From the NCBI GenBank assembly GCA_913057255.1, contig CAJXNU010000005.1, positions 1-40,201 of the forward strand: a DNA stretch of 40,201 nt, written 5' to 3'. The stretch is from an uncultured Wenzhouxiangella sp. (GTDB lineage Bacteria > Pseudomonadota > Gammaproteobacteria > Xanthomonadales > Wenzhouxiangellaceae). Made by a program: the position numbers and the translations under genes. The stretch's first letter is position 1. Every line of letters starts with the position of its first letter. Positions 17,159-40,201 of the stretch are shown in pieces. The notes under the pieces are model-generated. The model had not been told where the DNA came from. It ran no database searches and saw nothing but the letters and a program-made list of their open reading frames with translations.

Positions 17159-17211
17159 CTTTTAAATGAGCTTGTTTGAATGTTAATCAATTTTTCCACT
17201 CTGTGCCAAGC

Positions 17212-18216
17212 ATGCCAATAAAACCCCCACTCAATGGACACACCAACCAGCAGACGATCTGGGTGGGCCTGGCGTTGCTCGCACTGTTGCCATTGAGCTT
17301 GTTGTTGGCGCTGTCTTGGGGATCGAGCGGATGGCTTTGGCCTTGGTTGGCCACCGAGACTCAATCGGGCCTCATCTGGGAGCTTCGATGGCCCAGAGCC
17401 ATTGCCGCCTGGATCACCGGTGCTCTGTTGGCCGTCGCGGGTTGTTTGATGCAGGTGCTCTTAAGAAATCCTCTGGCAGACCCCTATGTTTTGGGTTTAT
17501 CGGGTGGTGCCTCGGTATTTGCGCTGTTGGGCATCAGCGTGGCTGGCACGTTTGGCATACAAACGCTGCCCATCCCCGTGCTGGCGTTTTTAGGTGCCTT
17601 ACTCACCACGATCATTGTCTTTGTGCTGGCCCGAGGCAAAGGCCCTTGGTCGACCACTCGGGTACTGCTGACTGGCGTGGTCATTGCCGCCGGTTGGGGC
17701 GCGGTGATTTCACTGATCTTGGCCCTAGGTCCCGATGCGAGTCTGCGCGGCATGTTGTTTTGGATGATGGGAGATCTCAGTTACGCCAGCTTGTCTGCTT
17801 GGTGGTTAGCGCCCGTCTTTTTGGGTTTGGCGCTGGTGTGGTTTCGGGCCAGAAGCCTGAATGTGATGAGCCAAGGCCAACTGCAAGCTTCGCTATTGGG
17901 TGAGGCCACCCGCGCCAGATTTTGGGAAGTCTATGTGCTCGCCTCATTGCTCACGGGCTTGGCTGTCTCGATTGCCGGCGCCATTGGGTTTGTTGGATTG
18001 ATCGTGCCGCATTTGATGCGGCTGCTGATTGGTGCCGATCACCGAGTCTTGCTGCCCGCCGCTGCTTTTTTTGGCGGTGGGTTCTTAGTCGTTGCCGATA
18101 CGATAGCGCGCACACTCTTAGCCCCTCGTCAATTGCCGGTTGGCGTGCTGACCGCTTTGATTGGCGTGCCCTTATTTTTGGTGCTCCTTAATCGAGCCAT
18201 CCGGATCAGAGGATAA
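17212..18216 (+). CDS. FecCD/BtuC-family ABC transporter permease
   Basis: This is an inner-membrane permease for cobalamin, iron-siderophore or haem import, with about ten membrane helices. Family signatures include LRWPRAIAAWITGALLAVAGCLMQVLLRNPLADPYVLGLSGGAS near the start, then MLFWMMGDLSYAS, and AGAIGFVGLIVPHLMRLLIGADHR, the ATPase-contact region. The C-terminus ends LPVGVLTALIGVPLFLVLL. It has about 334 residues from ATG 17212. An in-frame TTG at 17176 adds 12 residues and is less likely. The ATPase gene follows after 2 bp. No periplasmic binding protein or cognate TonB receptor is adjacent, so the substrate cannot be assigned. Cobalamin is a reasonable first guess. Confidence 0.9.
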   Translation: MPIKPPLNGHTNQQTIWVGLALLALLPLSLLLALSWGSSGWLWPWLATETQSGLIWELRWPRAIAAWITGALLAVAGCLMQVLLRNPLADPYVLGLSGGASVFALLGISVAGTFGIQTLPIPVLAFLGALLTTIIVFVLARGKGPWSTTRVLLTGVVIAAGWGAVISLILALGPDASLRGMLFWMMGDLSYASLSAWWLAPVFLGLALVWFRARSLNVMSQGQLQASLLGEATRARFWEVYVLASLLTGLAVSIAGAIGFVGLIVPHLMRLLIGADHRVLLPAAAFFGGGFLVVADTIARTLLAPRQLPVGVLTALIGVPLFLVLLNRAIRIRG

Positions 18217-18218
18217 GA

Positions 18219-18998
18219 ATGCACACCGCTCCCTTTCTTGAAGTGCAACAGGCCACCATTGAGATTGGGGAGGTGTGCGTGGCCCGGGATCTCAATTGGG
18301 CCATCCAGGGCCACGAGTTCTGGGGGGTGTTGGGTCAAAATGGCGTCGGTAAAACCACGCTATTGAAAACCTTGGCTGGACTCCACCCGCTGACCCAAGG
18401 GCGAGTGAAATTACATGGCCAAGACATGCCAGAGATTCCTCGACGCACCATTGCCACATCGCTTGGCATGCTCACCCAAGAGACCCGCTATGCTTTTGAT
18501 GCCACCTGCGAGCAGACCGTGCTGGTGGGGAGACATCCTCACTTGAAACCGTGGATGAAAGAGCAAGCCAGTGATTATGAACTGGCCCATCGTGCCCTCG
18601 ATTGGCTGGGCTTGGCAGATCTGAAACATCGCTCATGCATGAACTTATCGGGTGGAGAATCCCGTCGCTTGGCCCTGGCGACACTGTTGGTACAAGACCC
18701 ACAAGTGATGTTGTTGGACGAACCGACCAACCACTTGGACCCAGCCAATCAAGTCAGCGTCTTGAATGTGGTCGGTCAACACATCAGAACCCAAGGCAAA
18801 GCCGGGGTCATGGCGTTGCATGAGATCAATTTAGCGACGTGTTATTGCACGCACTGTCTGATGTTATTTGGTGATGGTGATTGGCTGGCGGGGCCGACCG
18901 ATCAATTGCTCAACACCGACAATCTCAGTCGGCTATACGGCTGTGCGATGCGCTTAGTGGACGATGGCGAGCATCAAGTCTTTGCTGTGGCGGGTTAG
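18219..18998 (+). CDS. ABC transporter ATP-binding protein (cobalamin/iron-siderophore type)
   Basis: This is the nucleotide-binding subunit that works with the preceding permease. It shows Walker A (GQNGVGKTTLLKTLAG), a Q-loop (GMLTQETRYAF), the signature LSGGESRRLALATLL, Walker B with catalytic Glu (QVMLLDEPTNHLDP) and the switch histidine (VMALHEINLATCY). There are 259 residues, typical for FepC/BtuD-type subunits. The signature is LSGGES rather than the more common LSGGE(R/Q/L). It is the last gene of the plus-strand pair and converges with the efflux operon, with a 32-bp gap and no clear terminator. Confidence 0.92.
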   Translation: MHTAPFLEVQQATIEIGEVCVARDLNWAIQGHEFWGVLGQNGVGKTTLLKTLAGLHPLTQGRVKLHGQDMPEIPRRTIATSLGMLTQETRYAFDATCEQTVLVGRHPHLKPWMKEQASDYELAHRALDWLGLADLKHRSCMNLSGGESRRLALATLLVQDPQVMLLDEPTNHLDPANQVSVLNVVGQHIRTQGKAGVMALHEINLATCYCTHCLMLFGDGDWLAGPTDQLLNTDNLSRLYGCAMRLVDDGEHQVFAVAG

Positions 18999-31197: not shown

Positions 31198-33048
31198 ATG
31201 GCCCTAAGAAAGAGTTTGATACCGACCTTGCAATGCTGGCTATGGGTTTGGGCCTCTCTACTCACACCCAGTTTTCTGATCGCTCAGGAGCCACCCGCGC
31301 CGACTGAGGCGAGCATCGAGCAAGGGCCTGATGCGTGGCTGGCCACTTTCGATCGGCTACAAACCACCGACTTGTCTCAAGCCACTGAGAGCCTGAACAA
31401 AGTCAGAGCTCAAGCCTTGGCCACCGATGATGTGGATTTGTTGTTTGCCTATGCCCAGCGCGTGATTGCCCATTTCCGCTATGCCGATGACCTTCCTCAA
31501 ATCATCGAAGAGCTCGAAGCATTCCAAACGCGCAATCAAGATGAACTCACTCCACCGCAACGCCGTTACCTACAACTGGTGCTGGCTGCGTTGCACATTC
31601 AAGACCAAAGTGATCTCGATGAGGCCGAGCGCATCCTCATCGCCTTAGACCAAGACCCTGGACTGAGCGAACACCAGGCCACCGTGAAAAAAACGCTGGG
31701 GGATTTGTATCAAACCCTTGGACGATATCCACAGGCGCTCAGTGCATACACCGAAGCCTTAAGACTCAATTCAGAGCCCGCGTTTCAGGCTCGGATCTAC
31801 AACAATCTAGGGAATGTGGCGAGCTTTTTAGAAGACTGGGATGAGGCCATTGGACACTATTTAAGGGCCATCGAGCTGTATGAAACGATCGGGTATGTGA
31901 GCGATCAGGTCTCGGTATGGGCCAACCTAGGCCCAACGTATCGGGACAATGAGGAGCCAGAAAAAGCATTAGAAGTCTATCTGGCCGGCATTGAGGCATT
32001 GGAAGGTTTGGATTCGCCCGATCTCAGTGCACAGTTTCAAATGAACTTGGGCAATTTGTATGTGGATCTGGGCCGGATGGACGATGCGCTTGTCGCCTTA
32101 GGCGAGTCCTTGCGTCTCTGTGAGGCCGAGGGCTTTGATTATTGTGTGATGCTCAATCACCTCAACATCGGTTATGCGGCCTATGTGGACCAAGACTATG
32201 CCCGTGCCCAAACCGCTTATGATCAGGCCGCTCGCATCCTAGAGCGCATTCCCGACCCGTATGTTGAGCGCCAATTGATGGACAACTACGCTGACCTCTA
32301 TCGAGATCTGGGTGAGTATGCGACCGCGCTTCAATATGCCGACCGGTACCATGAGCTTGATAGGCAGCTGATCAATGAAGAATCGAAAGCAGCGGCAGAA
32401 GAAATTCAAACGCGCTACGAGACCGAGCTCAAAGACGCGGAGCTTCTCATTCAAGCCGAACAAATTCAGCGGCAACAGACTCAGCTCCGATTGGGTATCG
32501 CTTTTGGTGCGGCACTCATCACCGCCTTGGTGGTCGCCCTCTTCTTCCTGAGCTATCGAACCCGGGCCCTGCAAAGCCTGTATGAGAGAAACCAGGACCT
32601 GTTGACTCAAAATGAGGTCAATCAACGCTTGGCTGAGCAACGCCACCTTGACCCGCCGGCAACCACCGAGGCCGATGGGGCCTCTCCGAGCCTGGCACAG
32701 GTGTTTGAACGGGTCACCGATGCGCTGCAACGAGAGGCCATTTACAGAGACCCAAACCTCTCACTCAATGACTTGGCCAGCCGTGTGGCCAGCAACAGCA
32801 CCTATGTCTCCAATGCGATCTCACAGGTCGCCAACACCAATTTCAATAACTTGGTCAATTACTATCGGATCATGGATGCCAGGCGCCAACTCAACCAAGC
32901 CGGTGCGGATGCGAAAATCTCGACCTTGGTCCACCACTGCGGCTTCAACTCCAAGGCCTCTTTTTATCGGGCCTTCTCCAAATACGTGGGCATGACACCC
33001 TCACAGTACCTGCAGCGCTTGAAAGCGAACGAAGCCAACGTCGCCTGA
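31198..33048 (+). CDS. Membrane-spanning TPR sensor with AraC-type HTH
   Basis: This 616-residue protein looks like a one-component transmembrane transcription regulator. A signal-anchor or signal peptide (about residues 8-30, ending FLIAQ) leads into a region of tetratricopeptide repeats (about 60-400), for example TLGRYPQALSAYTEALRL and LGEYATALQYADRYHEL. A short coiled coil with Gln/Glu comes next, then one membrane helix (about 432-451, LGIAFGAALITALVVALFFL). The C-terminal AraC-type domain (about 515-610) contains LSLNDLASRVASNSTYVSNAI and the second HTH ISTLVHHCGFNSKASFYRAFSKYVGMTPSQYLQRL. TPRs would therefore sit in the periplasm and DNA binding in the cytoplasm. It has no clear ribosome site and lies 7 bp after dusB. 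The function is unknown. The architecture recalls membrane regulators of polysaccharide or peptide uptake. Confidence 0.85.
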   Translation: MALRKSLIPTLQCWLWVWASLLTPSFLIAQEPPAPTEASIEQGPDAWLATFDRLQTTDLSQATESLNKVRAQALATDDVDLLFAYAQRVIAHFRYADDLPQIIEELEAFQTRNQDELTPPQRRYLQLVLAALHIQDQSDLDEAERILIALDQDPGLSEHQATVKKTLGDLYQTLGRYPQALSAYTEALRLNSEPAFQARIYNNLGNVASFLEDWDEAIGHYLRAIELYETIGYVSDQVSVWANLGPTYRDNEEPEKALEVYLAGIEALEGLDSPDLSAQFQMNLGNLYVDLGRMDDALVALGESLRLCEAEGFDYCVMLNHLNIGYAAYVDQDYARAQTAYDQAARILERIPDPYVERQLMDNYADLYRDLGEYATALQYADRYHELDRQLINEESKAAAEEIQTRYETELKDAELLIQAEQIQRQQTQLRLGIAFGAALITALVVALFFLSYRTRALQSLYERNQDLLTQNEVNQRLAEQRHLDPPATTEADGASPSLAQVFERVTDALQREAIYRDPNLSLNDLASRVASNSTYVSNAISQVANTNFNNLVNYYRIMDARRQLNQAGADAKISTLVHHCGFNSKASFYRAFSKYVGMTPSQYLQRLKANEANVA

Positions 33049-33058
33049 GCGCTTTTAT

Positions 33059-33091
33059 CACCCCCGCAGCACCCCTGCAGCACCCCCGTAT
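33059..33091 (+). repeat. Three tandem 11-bp C-rich repeats after the regulator gene
   Basis: CACCCCCGCAG (33059-33069), CACCCCTGCAG (33070-33080) and CACCCCCGTAT (33081-33091) are adjacent. They begin 10 bp after the regulator stop codon, in its 3' untranslated region. A C-rich, G-poor RNA stretch is a candidate Rho loading (rut) site. That role is inference. Confidence 0.85.
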
Positions 33092-33242
33092 CGCCCATAA
33101 AACCGGTCATTGACCGTCTTTGTCGCGTTTGGACACCTGTGTGTCGGATGCGGAGAGCCAAGTCAATCACTCATCCGTTAATCTGGACTTGAAAGTTATC
33201 TGGGAGGGGCTGTGGGTTAAGTGATGGCCTGCAGACAAGCCG

Positions 33243-33277
33243 CCCACCACAGACACGATCTGTGGTGGGTTTTTTTT
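33243..33277 (+). terminator. Rho-independent terminator of the engB-dusB-regulator unit
   Basis: A perfect 11-bp stem CCCACCACAGA / TCTGTGGTGGG (33243-33253, 33259-33269) with a 5-nt loop is followed by eight T. It is very strong for the plus strand. It lies 194 bp after the regulator stop, so the transcript has a long 3' untranslated region. An upstream CTGTGG near 33210 repeats part of the right arm. Confidence 0.93.
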
Positions 33278-33289
33278 GCCTCATCGCTG

Positions 33290-33311
33290 ACCACCCAATT
33301 TATAGGGTGGT
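33290..33311. repeat. Hairpin directly after the sulfotransferase stop
   Basis: ACCACCC (33290-33296) and GGGTGGT (33305-33311) make a 7-bp stem with an 8-nt loop. It is two bases beyond the sulfotransferase stop codon on the minus strand. No T-run follows in that direction, so it is at most a weak terminator or a 3'-end stabiliser. Confidence 0.5.
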
Positions 33312-33313
33312 AG

Positions 33314-35305
33314 TTAGACGAGATCGCCCAAGCTCTCTTTGAGTGGGCCCAACCAGTGATCAAAGTGGCGCCACTGCTCGACCCCACTTTGATAAATGGG
33401 TTGTCTGACTTGTTCTGCGCTGGCTGTTCTCACCGAGCGTTTGGTTTGATGAAACTCAACGCATGAAGACTCAAACGGTAAGTCTAAAAATGCCAGCAGT
33501 CTTTTGACTTGGCCTTCTAAGTCAGCCACCACCGATTCATAGTCCACCCTCAGTATTTGGTTGGGATAAACCGCATCCCAGTGCGCCATCAAATCCACAT
33601 AATCTCGGTAATAGCGCCCGATGTCCTCAAGCCCATAAGAAAACTCTTGGCCTTCGGCAAAGAGCTGCTTAAACCCACTAAAGCAACACGCCATGGGGTG
33701 TCGTCTGGCATCAATGATCTTGGCGTTGGGCAAGATGGTTTTGATCAGCCCAATGTGGCGGAAGTTGTTGGGCATCTTGTCGGTAAAAAATGGCGCACCC
33801 GCCCGATGGATTTTAGTTTCTTTTATGTATTGCTCGCCCAAACCGGCCAAGTTCTCTGGCGCCATCTCCGCCAGGATCCCAGGGTATTTGGGGGCCTCAT
33901 TGACCAGTTGGCGGCCATTTAAACGGTGCACGGTGGCCAATATGTTGGGAAGCTCCAAGGTGCCATCGATTTGGCTGTGTGAGGCCAAGATTTGCTCAAT
34001 TAGAGTCGATCCGGCTCGAGGCAAACCCACGATAAAAATGGGATCGGGCGCTGGGTGCCCAATCCCTTCCAAGGCCTGCACCCTCTCTGGGGTGAAAAAG
34101 GCTTTTTGTCTGGCAAAATCGGCCTGCATGCGATCGGCGCTGTAACGGACTTCTGCTCTTTTCAAGGCATTGCCTTTTTCGTAGTGCTCGAATGAGTCTG
34201 AATACGCCTCTCGGTCCTCATAAGCTTTGCCCAGCGCAAAATGCAAATGATATTGATCGGTTGGGCTGGCCTGTCCCAAGGTGAGCTGGGCTTCCATGGT
34301 CTCAAGCTCCGCCTCATCAAACCGGTGGGTTTTCATGTTGGCCAATGACCACCAGGCATCCCCAAAATAAGGGCGAGCGGCAGCTGCTTGCTGATAAGCC
34401 TCAATCGCTTTGGCCTGCTGGCCGATGGTTTTAAGGGCATGGCCTCGCTGGATATGCACTTGGGATGGATTGGGGCTCACATCCACCAAGCCATCCAATA
34501 CGCGTAAGGCCTCATCGTATTGCCCAATGGCGGCAGACTGATTGGCATAAGCCATCTCAGCTGCCAAGTTATTGGGCAACCGACGTCTAAGCTCCAATGC
34601 CTGCTCATGGGCTTTTTGGAACTTCTGGCGTTTGTGCAGGACTTTGACATAGTCAAGGCGCGCAAGATCAAAGTTGGGCTGAAACTCCAACGCGCTTTCT
34701 AATAAAAATTCGGCGTCGTCTAAGACATTTAAGCGCAGACCTAAGCCGGCCAATAGCCGCATGCCCTCGACATCTTTGGGGTGTTCTTTTAAGTAATGCC
34801 GACACAGCTTTTCGGCTTTGTAGAGTCGGTCCTCATGCATCATGGAGGTTACTGCTTGCAAGACTTTGGGAAGTTTTGAGAGCCTGTTGAGATTGGCTTT
34901 GGCCACCTGGGCTTCAGCCTCTTGGCCTGAAGCTTCCAGCAAGCGGGCCAACTCTCTCCAACTGGCCATCAGCCCTGGATTGTGCTCGACGGCAAATTGG
35001 TAAGCCCGAATGGCGGGTTCTACATGTTGTTGATCGCGGTGGTTGTGGCCCATTTCTTGCCACGCCCGTCCGTAGTCAGGCTTTATTTGTAACGCCTTTT
35101 GCAGATACATCATCGCCTGATCATGATCCCCTTCTGCCCGGCGACACACGGCTTTATAAAATAGGGTTTGGTGGCGGTCTGGCTCCAGAACAAGCAGTTG
35201 ATCGAAGAGCTTTTCGGCCTGTCTTATGTGTTGATGCTTAAGTAACTGTTCGGCTTGTTCGCGTAGCGCTTGAGTATCTCGGTCGCGATCAGTGGATGGG
35301 TTCAT
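33314..35305 (-). CDS. TPR-containing sulfotransferase
   Basis: This 663-residue protein has two parts. Residues about 10-400 are tetratricopeptide repeats (AEKLFDQLLVLEPDRHQTLFYKAV, AMMYLQKALQIKPDYGRAWQEMG and others). The C-terminal third is a PAPS-dependent sulfotransferase domain. Its 5'-phosphosulfate loop is IFIVGLPRAGSTLIEQIL (about 420-437), followed by DKMPNNFRHIGLIKTILPNAKIIDARRHPMACCFSGFK, which contains the 3'-phosphate-binding Arg. No signal peptide is seen, so it is cytoplasmic. The acceptor may be a peptide or protein held by the TPRs, but it is unknown. It lies 108 bp downstream of the TonB-receptor gene on the same strand, with two stem-loops between them. The ribosome site before ATG 35305 is poor. 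Confidence 0.9.
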   Translation of the reverse strand: MNPSTDRDRDTQALREQAEQLLKHQHIRQAEKLFDQLLVLEPDRHQTLFYKAVCRRAEGDHDQAMMYLQKALQIKPDYGRAWQEMGHNHRDQQHVEPAIRAYQFAVEHNPGLMASWRELARLLEASGQEAEAQVAKANLNRLSKLPKVLQAVTSMMHEDRLYKAEKLCRHYLKEHPKDVEGMRLLAGLGLRLNVLDDAEFLLESALEFQPNFDLARLDYVKVLHKRQKFQKAHEQALELRRRLPNNLAAEMAYANQSAAIGQYDEALRVLDGLVDVSPNPSQVHIQRGHALKTIGQQAKAIEAYQQAAAARPYFGDAWWSLANMKTHRFDEAELETMEAQLTLGQASPTDQYHLHFALGKAYEDREAYSDSFEHYEKGNALKRAEVRYSADRMQADFARQKAFFTPERVQALEGIGHPAPDPIFIVGLPRAGSTLIEQILASHSQIDGTLELPNILATVHRLNGRQLVNEAPKYPGILAEMAPENLAGLGEQYIKETKIHRAGAPFFTDKMPNNFRHIGLIKTILPNAKIIDARRHPMACCFSGFKQLFAEGQEFSYGLEDIGRYYRDYVDLMAHWDAVYPNQILRVDYESVVADLEGQVKRLLAFLDLPFESSCVEFHQTKRSVRTASAEQVRQPIYQSGVEQWRHFDHWLGPLKESLGDLV

Positions 35306-35328
35306 AAATAAGGGGTCTCAATCAACGA

Positions 35329-35350
35329 CAGGGCATCCGAGGATGCCCTG
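35329..35350. repeat. Perfect 10-bp-arm stem-loop upstream of the sulfotransferase
   Basis: CAGGGCATCC (35329-35338) and GGATGCCCTG (35341-35350) are perfect complements around GA. On the receptor-sulfotransferase transcript this forms a very stable hairpin 24 bases before the sulfotransferase start. There is no T-run. Confidence 0.85.
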
Positions 35351-35374
35351 CCACGTCTTAGCTCTGACGATCTC

Positions 35375-35394
35375 AGCCACCCCTGAGGGTGGCT
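35375..35394. repeat. Perfect 8-bp-arm stem-loop after the TonB receptor gene
   Basis: AGCCACCC (35375-35382) and GGGTGGCT (35387-35394) flank the loop CTGA. It lies 19 bp after the receptor stop codon on the minus strand. No T-run follows, so it would protect or pause the transcript rather than end it cleanly. Confidence 0.8.
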
Positions 35395-35413
35395 TCAATC
35401 GATGGAGAGTCAA

Positions 35414-37897
35414 TCAAAAACCAACAAAGTCGTAGCTGAACTTCACGCCAGCGGTCATTGGCCGATTGGTGGTGATTCTGCGGATATCATCTTGTTCATT
35501 GATAAACAGCTCAGCCCGCTTATCAAAGACGTTATCGACAAATACCTCCACTGACCAATCGTTTTTCGAAATGCCGGCTGAGGCATTGAAAATCGAATAA
35601 CCCGATTGACGCTCACGCACAGCTTCTACCAATGAGCTGTAGGAATGACCTGAGAATGAACCCGAGGCCTGCACAAAGGCCAGATCGGCAAAGCCCCAAT
35701 CCACCATGCGCTCGTAACGACCGCGCAGATAGGCTTGGAACTCGGGGACCAACGGCAACGTGCTGCCAATGGGTGCCAGCTCAATGACCTGTGCATCCAC
35801 CGCCGTCAGCTCAGTGTCGTTGTATGAGAACGCGCCAAACAGCGTGAAGTTTTGTGTCGCTCGCCAGACGAAGTCACCTTCAATACCGAAGATCTCAGAA
35901 TCGGCTGAGTTCTCAATAAAGGTGAGAATCGAGACGTTTTGTGGATCAAAACGAGAGACTTGCATGTTGTCCCACTCGATCCAGTAGACACTGCCGTTGA
36001 AGCGAAGCGTGTTATCCAGCAACGATGTCTTCCAACCAAATTCGTAGTTGGTCACCTCATCGGTCTCAAACGTGACCTGAACGGTTGGGAAGTCAGGATT
36101 GGCAGATGGAATCCCACCGCCTCGGTTAAAGCCACCGGGTCTAAACCCTTCTGAGTAAGTGGCATAGAACAGCGCATCGTCTGTCGGTGTCCACGATAGG
36201 TTCACTCGAGTGATGGTGTCTTTTTGTTCCAACGGATCTGGACTGTGACCGCCAGAGCGCTCATAGTCTCGACCACTGTCACCATCGATCGATCCGGCAA
36301 AAATGCCGTTGGCAAAGTTCGATGACCCAACAAACGATGTCTCTAGATCATAACGACGCGCACCCACCGTGGCTTTCAAGGTGTTGGGTATGATGTCATA
36401 GCTGAACTCACCAAAGAAAGCAATTTGCTCTTCTTCACGGGTGATGTCATTGAAAAAGGCAATGCCTGCTGGCCGAGTGTTCGGGTTGATGCTTTGAGCC
36501 GCACCAATCGGCGCATTGGGCGCAAAACCAAGATCAGGCGTTGCTAAGTAAGCGTAATCATCCTGTGTCTCGATCTTGTAATCGTCCATGAACACACCAC
36601 CGACGAAGCGCCAGCGATTGTCTGCTGGAGTTGAGAAGCGGAACTCATTGGTGAACCGCTCATGCTTCTGATCGATGATCGCACCCTTGGTTGGATCCAG
36701 GCACGCTCGGTTCTCAGTGATGAACTGAGGATCGATGTTGTAGTTGGTGATGTAGGCTGGGTTGTCATAGGTACAGGTGTAATACGCGATAAATGCACCC
36801 GCGTTGTTGTAGCCTGTGTAGTCCACATTTTGATCCACCTGACGGTCTAAATACGCGCCGGTGTAGACCAAATCCAACATCCCTGCACGGCCATTGACCG
36901 TCCATGAGAGCTGATTGAACTCATCACGCAACTTGTCTGGGAAGAAGCGGTTGACTTCTAAGTCGCCGACTTCTGGGTCATAGTCAAAGACGCCATCGGC
37001 ACCGAGCTGTTGGTAAGTGTTTTGGACCAAGATGTCCCAGTCATTGTTGACTTCATGATACAGACCGACACGAATGCCTTTATAGAAGCTGTCGTTAAAG
37101 TCTTCTTCGACCAACTCAAGATTGTTGGTGCTCTCATAAGTGGCATCAGGACCTAAATCCACGGCTGAGTCTGGGTTGATGCTTGGATCCAGCGTGAATT
37201 CGCCATAGACGTTATCAATGTAGCCACCCAGCTGAACGCTGTAGTAGGCCAAACGCATCGCCGTCTGATCACCAATCGGCAGGTTGAAATAACCCTCGCC
37301 GCTGGCATTCATGTCACCACCTTTGATGAACGATGAGCTGGCTGTAAAGCCTGCCTCATACGTGCCTAACTCAGGCTTGTTGGTGATGTAGCGAATCGTT
37401 CCGGCCTGAGAGCTCGCACCAAACAGCGTGCCTTGAGGTCCTGGGAGCACCTCAATTCGCTCTAGGTCGGTGACATAGATGTCCATGTTCCGGCCAGGCG
37501 CTGTGGCGGGTTGCTCATCGAGATAGAGCGCCACGTTGGGCTGTGTGCCCTGCGCACCAGACAGCAGGACGGTGATGGGCTGAATGGCCATGCCGCGAAT
37601 AAAGATGGTTTGCTGACCCGGTCCTCGGCTCGCTGCCGTGATGCCAGGCATGCTTTGTTGCAAGTCATCAAAGTTTTCCACGCCCATGTCATCAAGCGTT
37701 TCCCCATCCATGGCCTGCACAGCAACCGCTGTCGACTGCATGTCTTGGGCTTCGGTTCGGGTCGCGGTGACCACCATCCGATCGACTTGCCGGTTGTTTG
37801 ACTCATCCTGGGACTCGGTATCTTGTGCCTGAACTGCAGTGGCAGCGCCGGCGGCGAGCACCCAGCCAATGGCTTCGGATAATCGATTTCGTCTCAT
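35414..37897 (-). CDS. TonB-dependent outer-membrane receptor
   Basis: This outer-membrane importer has 827 residues. The signal peptide ends at AVQAQ (about residue 24). There is a short TonB-box-like DRMVVTATRTEAQD, then the plug domain (about 40-165) with IFIRGMA and ERIEVLPGPQGTLFGASSQAGTIRYITNKP. A 22-strand beta barrel ends in aromatic VKFSYDFVGF, the expected C-terminal phenylalanine. FATYSEGFRPGGFNRGG-like residues (FYATYSEGFRPGGFNRGGG) are typical of the sphingomonad/marine family. Two cysteines about 24 residues apart (near 375 and 399) could close an extracellular loop. The substrate is unknown. AAAGGA precedes ATG 37897. A 20-bp palindrome lies just upstream, and a sulfotransferase gene follows. 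Confidence 0.93.
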   Translation of the reverse strand: MRRNRLSEAIGWVLAAGAATAVQAQDTESQDESNNRQVDRMVVTATRTEAQDMQSTAVAVQAMDGETLDDMGVENFDDLQQSMPGITAASRGPGQQTIFIRGMAIQPITVLLSGAQGTQPNVALYLDEQPATAPGRNMDIYVTDLERIEVLPGPQGTLFGASSQAGTIRYITNKPELGTYEAGFTASSSFIKGGDMNASGEGYFNLPIGDQTAMRLAYYSVQLGGYIDNVYGEFTLDPSINPDSAVDLGPDATYESTNNLELVEEDFNDSFYKGIRVGLYHEVNNDWDILVQNTYQQLGADGVFDYDPEVGDLEVNRFFPDKLRDEFNQLSWTVNGRAGMLDLVYTGAYLDRQVDQNVDYTGYNNAGAFIAYYTCTYDNPAYITNYNIDPQFITENRACLDPTKGAIIDQKHERFTNEFRFSTPADNRWRFVGGVFMDDYKIETQDDYAYLATPDLGFAPNAPIGAAQSINPNTRPAGIAFFNDITREEEQIAFFGEFSYDIIPNTLKATVGARRYDLETSFVGSSNFANGIFAGSIDGDSGRDYERSGGHSPDPLEQKDTITRVNLSWTPTDDALFYATYSEGFRPGGFNRGGGIPSANPDFPTVQVTFETDEVTNYEFGWKTSLLDNTLRFNGSVYWIEWDNMQVSRFDPQNVSILTFIENSADSEIFGIEGDFVWRATQNFTLFGAFSYNDTELTAVDAQVIELAPIGSTLPLVPEFQAYLRGRYERMVDWGFADLAFVQASGSFSGHSYSSLVEAVRERQSGYSIFNASAGISKNDWSVEVFVDNVFDKRAELFINEQDDIRRITTNRPMTAGVKFSYDFVGF

Positions 37898-37923
37898 TGT
37901 TGGTCCTTTTGGTTTAAATGAAA

Positions 37924-37943
37924 TTTCAATTAATTAATTGAAA
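37924..37943. promoter_or_regulatory. 20-bp perfect palindrome upstream of the TonB receptor
   Basis: TTTCAATTAATTAATTGAAA is identical to its reverse complement. It starts 27 bp before the receptor ATG, in the expected promoter/leader region. It is a candidate operator for a dimeric regulator. On the minus strand a weak TCGACC lies about 16 bp before the palindrome, and the spacing would put a -10 inside it, but this promoter is speculative. Confidence 0.65.
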
Positions 37944-38496
37944 GCAAAACCGTGGGTCGACTCCATTGAGTGAACCTAAAAGACCCTCCCAAGCCATTCG
38001 GTCTGGGAAGTCAACTGAACGGATCTCGCGGACATACGGATGCCCACGGCGTCACGTCACTGACGAATCACTTCACCAAAAGCAATTGTTTCTATGTTGG
38101 TGATGCATTAAGCATCGATAAAGCATTAAAGCCGTCTTGCTCCATGGAATCATCCAATCGGCGCCATTTAAGGCGCTGGCTTTAATTTGGGTTTACATGC
38201 AGACGCTGTGCGTCATATCGCCTCTCTAACCGTTTATTTTGAATTGGTATCTGGCTAAGAGGGTGGTTGCTCTCAGGCAACCTTGGCATAAACTCTACCG
38301 ATGTACGGCGTGGTGACACCCACCCGTCCATTAGTTCACTTTTTTTCTTAGTGGCGTGTGCTTTATGTCCATTCAAAGCACGGCCGTTTGGAAAATAGTC
38401 TGACCTTTCGTTTTGAGTTCGCCAACGAGTTTAACATGATCTAAACATCACTTTCATCAAAGCCCTTTCACACCCATAAAAATTCACACCAGTCAG
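37944..38496. other. Gene-free region rich in short inverted repeats
   Basis: I see no credible protein gene here; the open frames are short and unlike neighbours. The stretch is more AT-rich than the flanking genes. It holds several stem-loops: GATGC/GCATC (38102-38116), CGGCGCC/GGCGCTG with one G-T pair (38159-38178), GACGC/GCGTC (38202-38214) and GGTTGC/GCAACC (38265-38282). A GCATTAA direct repeat lies at 38105 and 38123. It may be a long leader of the receptor mRNA, a structured RNA, or decayed sequence. Confidence 0.5.

Positions 38497-38563: not shown

Positions 38564-40201
<1,638 letters not shown>

Follow-up and report, generated by a model that had tools for sequence, protein, structure and literature searches.

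In a 40,201-nucleotide stretch of DNA from an uncultured Wenzhouxiangella sp. (the window; positions 1 to 40,201 of contig C5 of genome G000, which comprises 2.09 Mb in 198 contigs and is 95.5% complete), we found that the gene for a TonB-dependent receptor (TBDT), P0003, is followed on the same strand by the gene for P0002, a sulfotransferase (ST) that carries an N-terminal array of tetratricopeptide repeats (TPR). This TBDT-ST pair is a conserved, robust and widespread unit that many marine bacteria have kept intact, and only one extracellular loop of the paired receptors, L4, is rich in tyrosine. On balance, we lean towards the reading that the TPR-ST is a tyrosylprotein sulfotransferase dedicated to the receptor whose gene lies beside its own, acting before export, with the receptor itself as the acceptor. 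A third gene, for the membrane TPR-AraC regulator P0001, lies on the forward strand and converges on the TBDT-ST operon on the reverse strand. An earlier inspection of the window (the sequence-only reading) had described this convergent arrangement, and all three open reading frames (ORFs) are present where it placed them (Table 1).

The receptor and sulfotransferase genes are paired across genomes

We collected 121 loci with a recognizable ST: 80 from named genomes, 40 stretches from genomes of the order and the window itself. In 109 of these, a TBDT gene lies directly upstream of the ST gene, on the same strand and with a gap of at most 319 nt. When we re-read the remaining 12 loci, we found that the TBDT is directly downstream in eight and is masked by an over-long ORF start in one; of the last three, two stop at a contig edge and one (L117) has its receptor about 4.7 kb away. 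In total, an adjacent TBDT is present in 118 of the 121 ST loci. Some long open frames resembled ST-TBDT fusions; those among the 12 re-read loci proved to be overlapping or over-long ORFs, and on that basis we set the fusion reading aside. When we drew loci in reverse, searching 121 genomes only for similarity to the receptor (E ≤ 1e-40; 62 rows that reduce to 59 genes, 3 rows being second fragments), 52 of the 59 TBDT genes lie within about 1.8 kb of an ST and 7 lack such a neighbor. Both counts bear out the view of the sequence-only reading that receptor and TPR-ST belong together as a unit.

The gene order varies. Among 155 TBDTs at most 1.8 kb from an ST, the TBDT comes first in 112, the ST comes first in 28, and the two genes are divergent in 9 and convergent in 6. 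Three of the 155 (two convergent, one TBDT-first) are bystanders: the ST beside each is flanked on its far side by a different receptor (L139_22, L167_43 and L055_34, with 0–2 Tyr); we kept them in the 155-row tyrosine statistics and dropped them from the 152-receptor residue counts, the correlations and the 11-loop comparison. One further convergent row, L240, has a stronger ST on its divergent side. The pair is found in Alphaproteobacteria and Gammaproteobacteria, and some genomes hold several separate pairs, with six in G063. Cultured relatives with the pair include Novosphingobium sp. PP1Y, Hyphomonas jannaschiana, Henriciella marina and Maricaulis salignorans.

P0002 resembles tyrosylprotein sulfotransferases

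P0002 matches Sulfotransfer_3 (PF13469, E = 4.5e-52) at residues 422–612, after the TPRs, and has no second match in its own genome at E ≤ 0.001. In the AlphaFold model (m37749543d984, built on a 30-sequence alignment; pLDDT 87), a long helical TPR superhelix extends to about residue 403 and is followed by the ST domain at residues 417–663. The sequence-only reading had seen TPR arrays in both the ST and the regulator, and Pfam identifies TPRs in each. The 5'-PSB and 3'-PB motifs of 3'-phosphoadenosine-5'-phosphosulfate (PAPS)-dependent sulfotransferases are conserved, with R430 and S543 invariant in 30 sequences. Because the N-terminus is charged and there is no strongly hydrophobic segment (the most hydrophobic 19-residue stretch reaches only 1.29), P0002 is expected to be cytoplasmic. 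The window genome encodes two APS-kinase domains, which can provide PAPS.

When we searched with the P0002 model, Foldseek ranked SPINDLY, OGT and other TPR proteins first. We then re-aligned Foldseek's own matches, a comparison in which other sulfotransferase families are possible beyond the 50 matches listed; the seven sulfotransferases among the 50 are without exception tyrosylprotein sulfotransferases (TPSTs; 8w5z, 5wrj, 5wri, 3ap3, 3ap1, 3ap2 and 9wwe), with Z scores of 18.7–19.1 over 232–237 residues. Of the other 43 listed matches, 25 are OGT, fitting the TPR part. In a profile search of the PDB with the ST domain, tick TPST and TPST1 score best (2e-12 to 6e-12; 8w5z, 2.4e-12), followed by a polyketide-synthase ST (1.1e-8), TPST2 (about 3e-8) and CurM (4e-7), and cytosolic SULTs reach 0.016 and worse. 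By the profile search and in the structure list, TPST is thus the closest solved sulfotransferase.

One extracellular loop of the paired receptors is rich in tyrosine

P0003 has a signal-peptide-like N-terminus, a plug (Pfam, E = 1e-15) and a 22-strand barrel (Pfam, E = 3.6e-31) in which short periplasmic turns alternate with long outer loops, as expected of a TonB-dependent receptor (AlphaFold model m6e45c3da41ce; pLDDT 81, pTM 0.83). We aligned the 155 ST-adjacent TBDTs with 22 others, namely the 22 of 28 unpaired rows that score above 150 and lie away from contig edges; the broken receptor of L217 was too short to enter. We did not count as unpaired three Tyr-rich receptors that lie inside an ST locus and more than 1.8 kb from the ST (L071_19, L117_9 and L151_50), and the unpaired Tyr-rich receptor L221 is counted in the set of 19 unpaired receptors and dropped from the set of 18.

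One aligned segment holds many conserved tyrosines. In the window it reads DQNVDYTGYNNAGAFIAYYTCTY, and in relatives VDYSDYLFVGQYLPYYICD, EYDYSDYTEYWAYYLTNPDYY and QDYTNYSRSAGGMYYQC. In the P0003 model this segment is the loop between strands 341–359 and 404–422, the fourth outer loop by strand count (L4), and it contains Tyr 360, 363, 372, 373, 377, 383 and 387 as well as Cys 375 and 399. Among the 11 outer loops of paired receptors only L4 is Tyr-rich, with 6.8 Tyr per receptor (18.8%, as compared to 0.3–4.6% in the other loops), while L4 of 18 unpaired receptors holds 0.61 Tyr per receptor. When we defined the loop as window residues 353–388, the 155 paired receptors average 6.56 Tyr (20%, against 4.0% in the rest of the receptor) and 19 unpaired receptors average 1.26 (4%). 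The difference is also present in score-matched subsets, where 18 paired receptors have 6.7 Tyr and 11 unpaired receptors have 0.73 (Mann-Whitney p = 5.5e-5).

The core of the loop is (D)Y-x-x-Y, represented in the window by VDYTGY (Tyr 360 and 363). Among 152 paired receptors, 146 retain Tyr360 and 151 retain Tyr363, and where either is replaced, the substitute is never Phe or Trp. Conservation is lower at Tyr372 (123 of 152), Tyr373 (143), Cys375 (112) and Cys399 (123). Across 138 distinct loops, Phe makes up 3.4% of residues as compared to 5.7% elsewhere, Lys plus Arg make up 1.3% as compared to 7.0% elsewhere, and Asp or Glu precedes 29% of loop tyrosines (position –1) as compared to 10% of tyrosines elsewhere. 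In substrates of metazoan TPSTs, the residue at –1 is mostly Asp, and the sulfotyrosines often cluster within six residues (PMC9372746).

Genes that accompany the pair

Betaine/carnitine/choline transporters (BCCTs) are recurrent neighbors of the pair. We found them in 70 of the 121 ST loci, often just after the ST gene or divergent from the receptor gene (Pfam was run on two). Across 101 genomes of the order there are 74 BCCT matches in 37 genomes, roughly one per 5 Mb; at that density, about half of one BCCT is expected in the approximately 2.3 Mb that the 121 loci hold, although most of the BCCT-linked loci are alphaproteobacterial and the expected density comes from genomes of the order. 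BCCT is unlinked in the window itself: the window genome has one BCCT gene, at the edge of another contig, and it carries the N-terminal motif of one linked subfamily. Dimethylglycine-dehydrogenase/sarcosine-oxidase-type genes are present in 11 of the 121 loci (both profiles match the same 11), and a PhnM-like amidohydrolase, a phosphonate gene, lies near the pair in nine loci from genomes of the order (L149, L150, L152, L155–L157 and L159–L161). These locus partners point to methylated-amine or similar nutrients, as a class only. The inner-membrane partners vary among loci, and the receptor is the constant partner.

We also looked for other acceptors. The N-terminus of some BCCTs contains a tyrosine (TDYE-x-GQDN); we dropped this candidate, as only some of the linked BCCTs have it. 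In the window, none of the listed intergenic ORFs (the longest eight or fewer per stretch) encodes a short Tyr-rich precursor peptide, each having 0–1 Tyr. The sequence-only reading had seen no acceptor gene nearby, which holds for short ORFs in this listing; a Tyr-rich candidate acceptor is, however, found inside the receptor itself.

A proposed mechanism

From the pairing, the fold and sequence resemblance, the tyrosine loop with its position, and the BCCT linkage, each of which was computed directly, we infer a reaction, a site, a timing before export and a class of ligand. In the cytoplasm, with PAPS as donor, the OGT-like TPR superhelix would hold the unfolded receptor precursor while the TPST-like domain would sulfate tyrosines of the future extracellular loop L4, with the VDYTGY core as the presumptive center. 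The receptor would then be exported and assembled, and L4 would form an anionic, aromatic lid over the ligand channel, possibly braced by a disulfide (C375–C399). Such a lid would favor cationic nutrients, probably quaternary-ammonium or sulfonium compounds, and a BCCT-type carrier, whose gene is often part of the locus in relatives, would move the nutrient across the inner membrane. More tentatively, operon-encoded TPR-STs of the P0002 clade may be a widespread device that sulfates one Tyr-crowded receptor loop and makes sulfotyrosine part of the ligand-binding lid.

Reach of the tyrosine loop and points against receptor sulfation

We fixed a prediction beforehand: a TBDT adjacent to an ST has at least 4 loop tyrosines and other TBDTs have at most 2. 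The prediction set was 30 loci (L257–L286), in which we recognized 12 TBDTs, all of them at most 1.8 kb from an ST; the set therefore tested only the first half of the prediction. Six of the 12 agree (L274, L276, L278, L279_27, L280 and L281), with 5–9 Tyr and ST scores of 259–367; four of these six loci are Novosphingobium plasmids. Two further receptors, of L277 (6 Tyr of 48 residues, two genes from the TPR-ST) and L285 (5 of 72, 2 kb away), were unrecognized by the receptor profile and are uncounted.

Several observations weigh against sulfation of the receptor loop, or narrow it. The other six of the 12 receptors failed the prediction: L268 has 3 Tyr, L269 has 1, and L264, L271, L279_15 and L282 have 0. 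Four of the six failures have an ST score below 210 (every such locus failed), L268 has a score of 248 and lies 1.6 kb from its ST, and L279_15 is a second TBDT flanking an ST whose other neighbor has the loop. Adjacent receptors in later-fetched Pseudoalteromonas loci also fail (L287, 0 Tyr; L288, 0; L292, 2; ST scores 206, 210 and 238). The tyrosine-loop rule is therefore limited to the P0002-like clade, from an ST score of about 259 up, and does not apply to TPR-STs at large. Conversely, L221 has the tyrosine loop and no ST in the stretch seen. Within the loop, 15 of the 152 receptors have Trp and 2 have Phe in place of Tyr372, and 2 have Phe in place of Tyr373, so the hydroxyl is dispensable at some loop tyrosines. 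On the enzyme side, PF13469 is broad, and the TPST resemblance alone therefore leaves the acceptor unset; E451, a candidate catalytic base that lies between the two PAPS-binding motifs, is invariant in the 30 sequences, yet sequence alignments disagree on its TPST counterpart.

The sample also has a narrow base in descent. We built a quick receptor tree, which has long branches, from 115 rows (about 30 of the 98 high-scoring paired receptors, all 57 lower-scoring ones, the 12 new ones and the unpaired ones with a score above 380). Nearly all tyrosine-loop receptors fall in one clade (93 of the 115 rows, support 99), and since this clade has both the loop and the linkage, statistically they amount to about one evolutionary event. 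Long-branch rows outside the clade, L162_10 (ST score 323) and L281, might be further origins. Tyr-poor receptors without an ST (L220 and L222–L225) sit close to the clade. Inside it, the linkage has outlasted repeated rearrangement and the tyrosine richness has outlasted heavy divergence of the loop, which fits an enzyme-substrate relation, short of proof.

More distant TPR-STs often lack an adjoining TBDT, so the pairing is a property of the P0002-like clade. In the neighbors of distant TPR-STs that we examined, an Enterobacter autotransporter and a Comamonas adhesin fragment, there is no comparable tyrosine cluster, a further point against. In a Comamonas endophytica plasmid (L293), a TPR-ST identified by Pfam lies between a very long cadherin-domain gene and genes for TolC, ABC, HlyD and cysC (APS-kinase), a Rax-like arrangement; in plasmid pENTE01 of Enterobacter sp. 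638 (L294), a TPR-ST, a family-8 glycosyltransferase and an autotransporter stand in a row; and in a plasmid of Asticcacaulis sp. DW145 (L277), the gene order is TBDT, family-2 sulfotransferase, aspartyl/asparaginyl beta-hydroxylase, TPR-ST, with phnX adjoining. The neighborhoods of distant TPR-STs suggest that these enzymes act on exported surface proteins, and those beside adhesins and autotransporters might, judging by gene neighborhood only, modify these proteins in a similar way.

Alternative explanations

In the main rival explanation, the tyrosine loop is a ligand-binding element, either an aromatic cage for quaternary ammonium or a set of phenolate metal ligands, and the substrate that the ST sulfates in the cytoplasm is the imported nutrient or its product. 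The frequency of BCCTs in the ST loci, given how sparse they otherwise are, the dimethylglycine-dehydrogenase/sarcosine-oxidase-type and PhnM-like genes, and the occasional Trp or Phe at positions 372 and 373 all agree with it. However, cages tolerate Phe and Trp, which never replace Tyr360 or Tyr363, a TPR superhelix with a TPST-like domain suits a protein acceptor, and the partner that stays constant is the receptor rather than the inner-membrane protein. We consider this explanation unlikely, though it deserves attention. We regard as improbable a second explanation, in which the ST sulfates a different surface acceptor (lipopolysaccharide, the capsule or a protein whose gene lies elsewhere), with the receptor taking up material linked to that acceptor: other TPR-STs do adjoin other surface proteins, such as the Comamonas cadherin-domain protein and the Enterobacter sp. 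638 autotransporter, and several TPR-ST loci have no recognizable TBDT in the stretch fetched, but this would leave unexplained the one-to-one pairing, with up to six pairs per genome, and the presence of the tyrosine loop in ST-adjacent receptors and not in their nearest unpaired relatives.

The sequence-only reading had proposed import through the receptor, periplasmic sensing by the TPR-AraC regulator with control of the operon through a palindrome, and sulfation of an acceptor in the cytoplasm. Its last element survives, as sulfation of a protein acceptor in the cytoplasm is the reading we prefer, whereas the regulatory part is very improbable. P0001 itself is as described: it has TPRs (PF13424, E = 5e-28), an AraC helix-turn-helix (PF12833, E = 7e-15, residues 526–607), a hydrophobic N-terminus and one clear transmembrane segment at residues 432–452 (hydropathy 2.55 over 19 residues). 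Of 151 genomes of the order, we found it at E ≤ 1e-30 in only two, G000 and G089, in a survey that scored at most 8 candidates per genome and may miss remote forms. These are sister species in which the block around P0001 is syntenic; both copies include a gene for dihydrouridine synthase (Pfam) and one that by eye encodes an engB-like GTPase. Among the 121 ST loci, only 2 have a match with both the TPR and the AraC parts in the stretches fetched, as compared to 55 with a MarR regulator. The proposed co-occurrence of the three genes therefore fails on distribution, and we rejected P0001 as a third member of the system. We did not see P0001 elsewhere without the pair, the observation named beforehand as counting against the model; the reverse, the pair without P0001, is the rule. 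P0001 does adjoin the pair in both genomes that have it, and it may control this operon in G000 and G089 without being a general part of the system.

The 20-bp palindrome reported ahead of the receptor-ST operon is real (TTTCAATTAATTAATTGAAA), and it occurs nowhere else in the 2.09-Mb genome, even when 3 mismatches are allowed. At the same place, G089 has an imperfect dyad with 7-bp arms (TTCAATT/AATTGAA) and a spacer of 3 rather than 4, so the dyad is partly kept in both genomes with P0001, although palindromes suit many dimeric regulators. In 75 bases upstream of the receptor in 8 other loci of the same family, the dyad has no counterpart, L135 having only a lone TTTCAATT; in two of these eight, L133 and L138, the receptor start was not located by the start rule. 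We therefore rejected the palindrome as a conserved operator, since G089 alone among the family loci read has a recognizable counterpart. The upstream region of approximately 560 bp is conserved with that of G089 (72% over 575 columns), and we rejected a riboswitch in it, as there is no Rfam match up to E = 1.

A paralog of the TPR-AraC regulator lies two genes from a siderophore-type receptor on contig C8 of G000 (L172). On contig C14 of G089 (L297), there is a homologous siderophore-type receptor and, at the contig edge, a fragment of a TPR-AraC paralog. The C8 receptor has a Tyr/Asp-rich stretch that is conserved with G089, probably a usual siderophore-receptor motif; we set this stretch aside as an acceptor, as there is no ST beside the receptor.

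Finally, association by descent only, with inherited gene order and no functional link, is hardly credible: much of the named sample is related Hyphomonadales and Maricaulales, and ST similarity strongly tracks TBDT similarity when all pairs are compared (rho 0.90), a pattern that common descent by itself would produce, but there are several gene orders, two proteobacterial classes and several separate pairs within one genome, and similarities correlate within genomes too (rho 0.69 over 28 non-independent comparisons, which include L240 with the weaker of its two STs).

Features of the window

The coordinates of the receptor-ST operon and its surroundings are collected in Table 1. About 15 kb from the operon (17176–18995), the window has FecCD-type permease and ABC ATPase genes of an iron or cobalamin-type importer. 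Upstream of the operon and on the same strand, a peroxidase-family frame (PF00141, E = 6.5e-45; by eye a catalase-peroxidase) runs from 38564 to 40201, where it is cut by the window end.

Table 1. Positions in the window of the receptor-sulfotransferase operon and adjoining features
Feature	Position	Strand	Basis or remark
TonB-dependent receptor (TBDT) P0003, 827 aa	35414–37897	–	Pfam; AlphaFold model m6e45c3da41ce
Tyr-rich extracellular loop L4 and strand edge, P0003 residues 353–403; proposed sulfation region	36689–36841	–	
TPR-sulfotransferase (ST) P0002, 663 aa	33314–35305	–	Pfam; AlphaFold model m37749543d984
ST 5'-PSB PAPS-binding motif, residues 422–441	33983–34042	–	R430 invariant in 30 sequences
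ST 3'-PB PAPS-binding motif, residues 532–549	33659–33712	–	S543 invariant in 30 sequences
20-bp palindrome, 5' leader of receptor gene	37924–37943	.	Counterpart in sister species G089 only
Upstream leader/promoter region of receptor gene, conserved with G089	37900–38458	–	
Membrane TPR-AraC regulator P0001, 616 aa; neighbor, membership in system lacking support	31198–33048	+	
12-pair terminator-like hairpin between converging genes	33242–33270	+	Consensus match only

Discussion

RaxST of Xanthomonas is a PAPS-dependent, TPST-like bacterial tyrosylprotein sulfotransferase encoded beside its exported substrate RaxX, as described in the available text of PMC6637879; in the literature we found, as far as the available texts extend, RaxST acting on the peptide RaxX is the bacterial tyrosylprotein sulfotransferase. 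The locus studied here likewise has a TPST-like ST gene beside the gene for an exported protein, which is a proven substrate in the case of RaxX and a proposed one in the case of the receptor; in contrast to RaxST, P0002 has a TPR superhelix and its proposed acceptor is a loop of an outer-membrane receptor. We recognized neither a RaxX-like peptide nor a peptide-exporting ABC transporter in the ORFs from 24 to 40 kb, the 20 Pfam-scanned ORFs of the window or the listed intergenic small ORFs, a search that used no RaxX profile, and the single HlyD-type gene of the window lies 13 kb away, together with an AcrB-type pump. P0002 resembles metazoan TPST1 and TPST2, which are its best profile matches and the only sulfotransferases among the structure matches listed, and the acidic tyrosine context of the proposed site adds to the likeness. 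However, TPSTs are Golgi-anchored, according to the available text of PMC9372746, whereas P0002 is bacterial, appears soluble and has an N-terminal TPR array. With OGT and SPINDLY it shares the fusion of a TPR superhelix to a protein-modifying transferase, but its catalytic domain and donor differ. The receptor has the plug and 22-strand barrel of TonB-dependent receptors with operon-encoded partners, many of whose loci contain transporter or regulator genes; in the present pair, the partner is a sulfotransferase and the receptor has one Tyr-rich extracellular loop. We found no paper in the open-licence PMC literature on TPR-sulfotransferases with TonB receptors and nothing on the TPR plus Sulfotransfer_3 enzyme family. 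The available text of PMC10040529 lists TonB receptor, BCCT and sulfotransferase clusters that track halotolerance, in separate table rows.

Sulfation of the receptor loop is directly testable in cultured relatives. If it is confirmed, the TPR plus Sulfotransfer_3 family would have a job, and some +80 Da marks on tyrosine in bacterial proteomes that are taken as phosphotyrosine may merit re-examination. The TBDT-ST pair would then be a second and far more widely distributed case of a bacterial tyrosylprotein sulfotransferase, one that acts on outer-membrane receptors, and it would represent a new kind of bacterial surface-protein modification, by which sulfation would join the chemistry of the bacterial surface.

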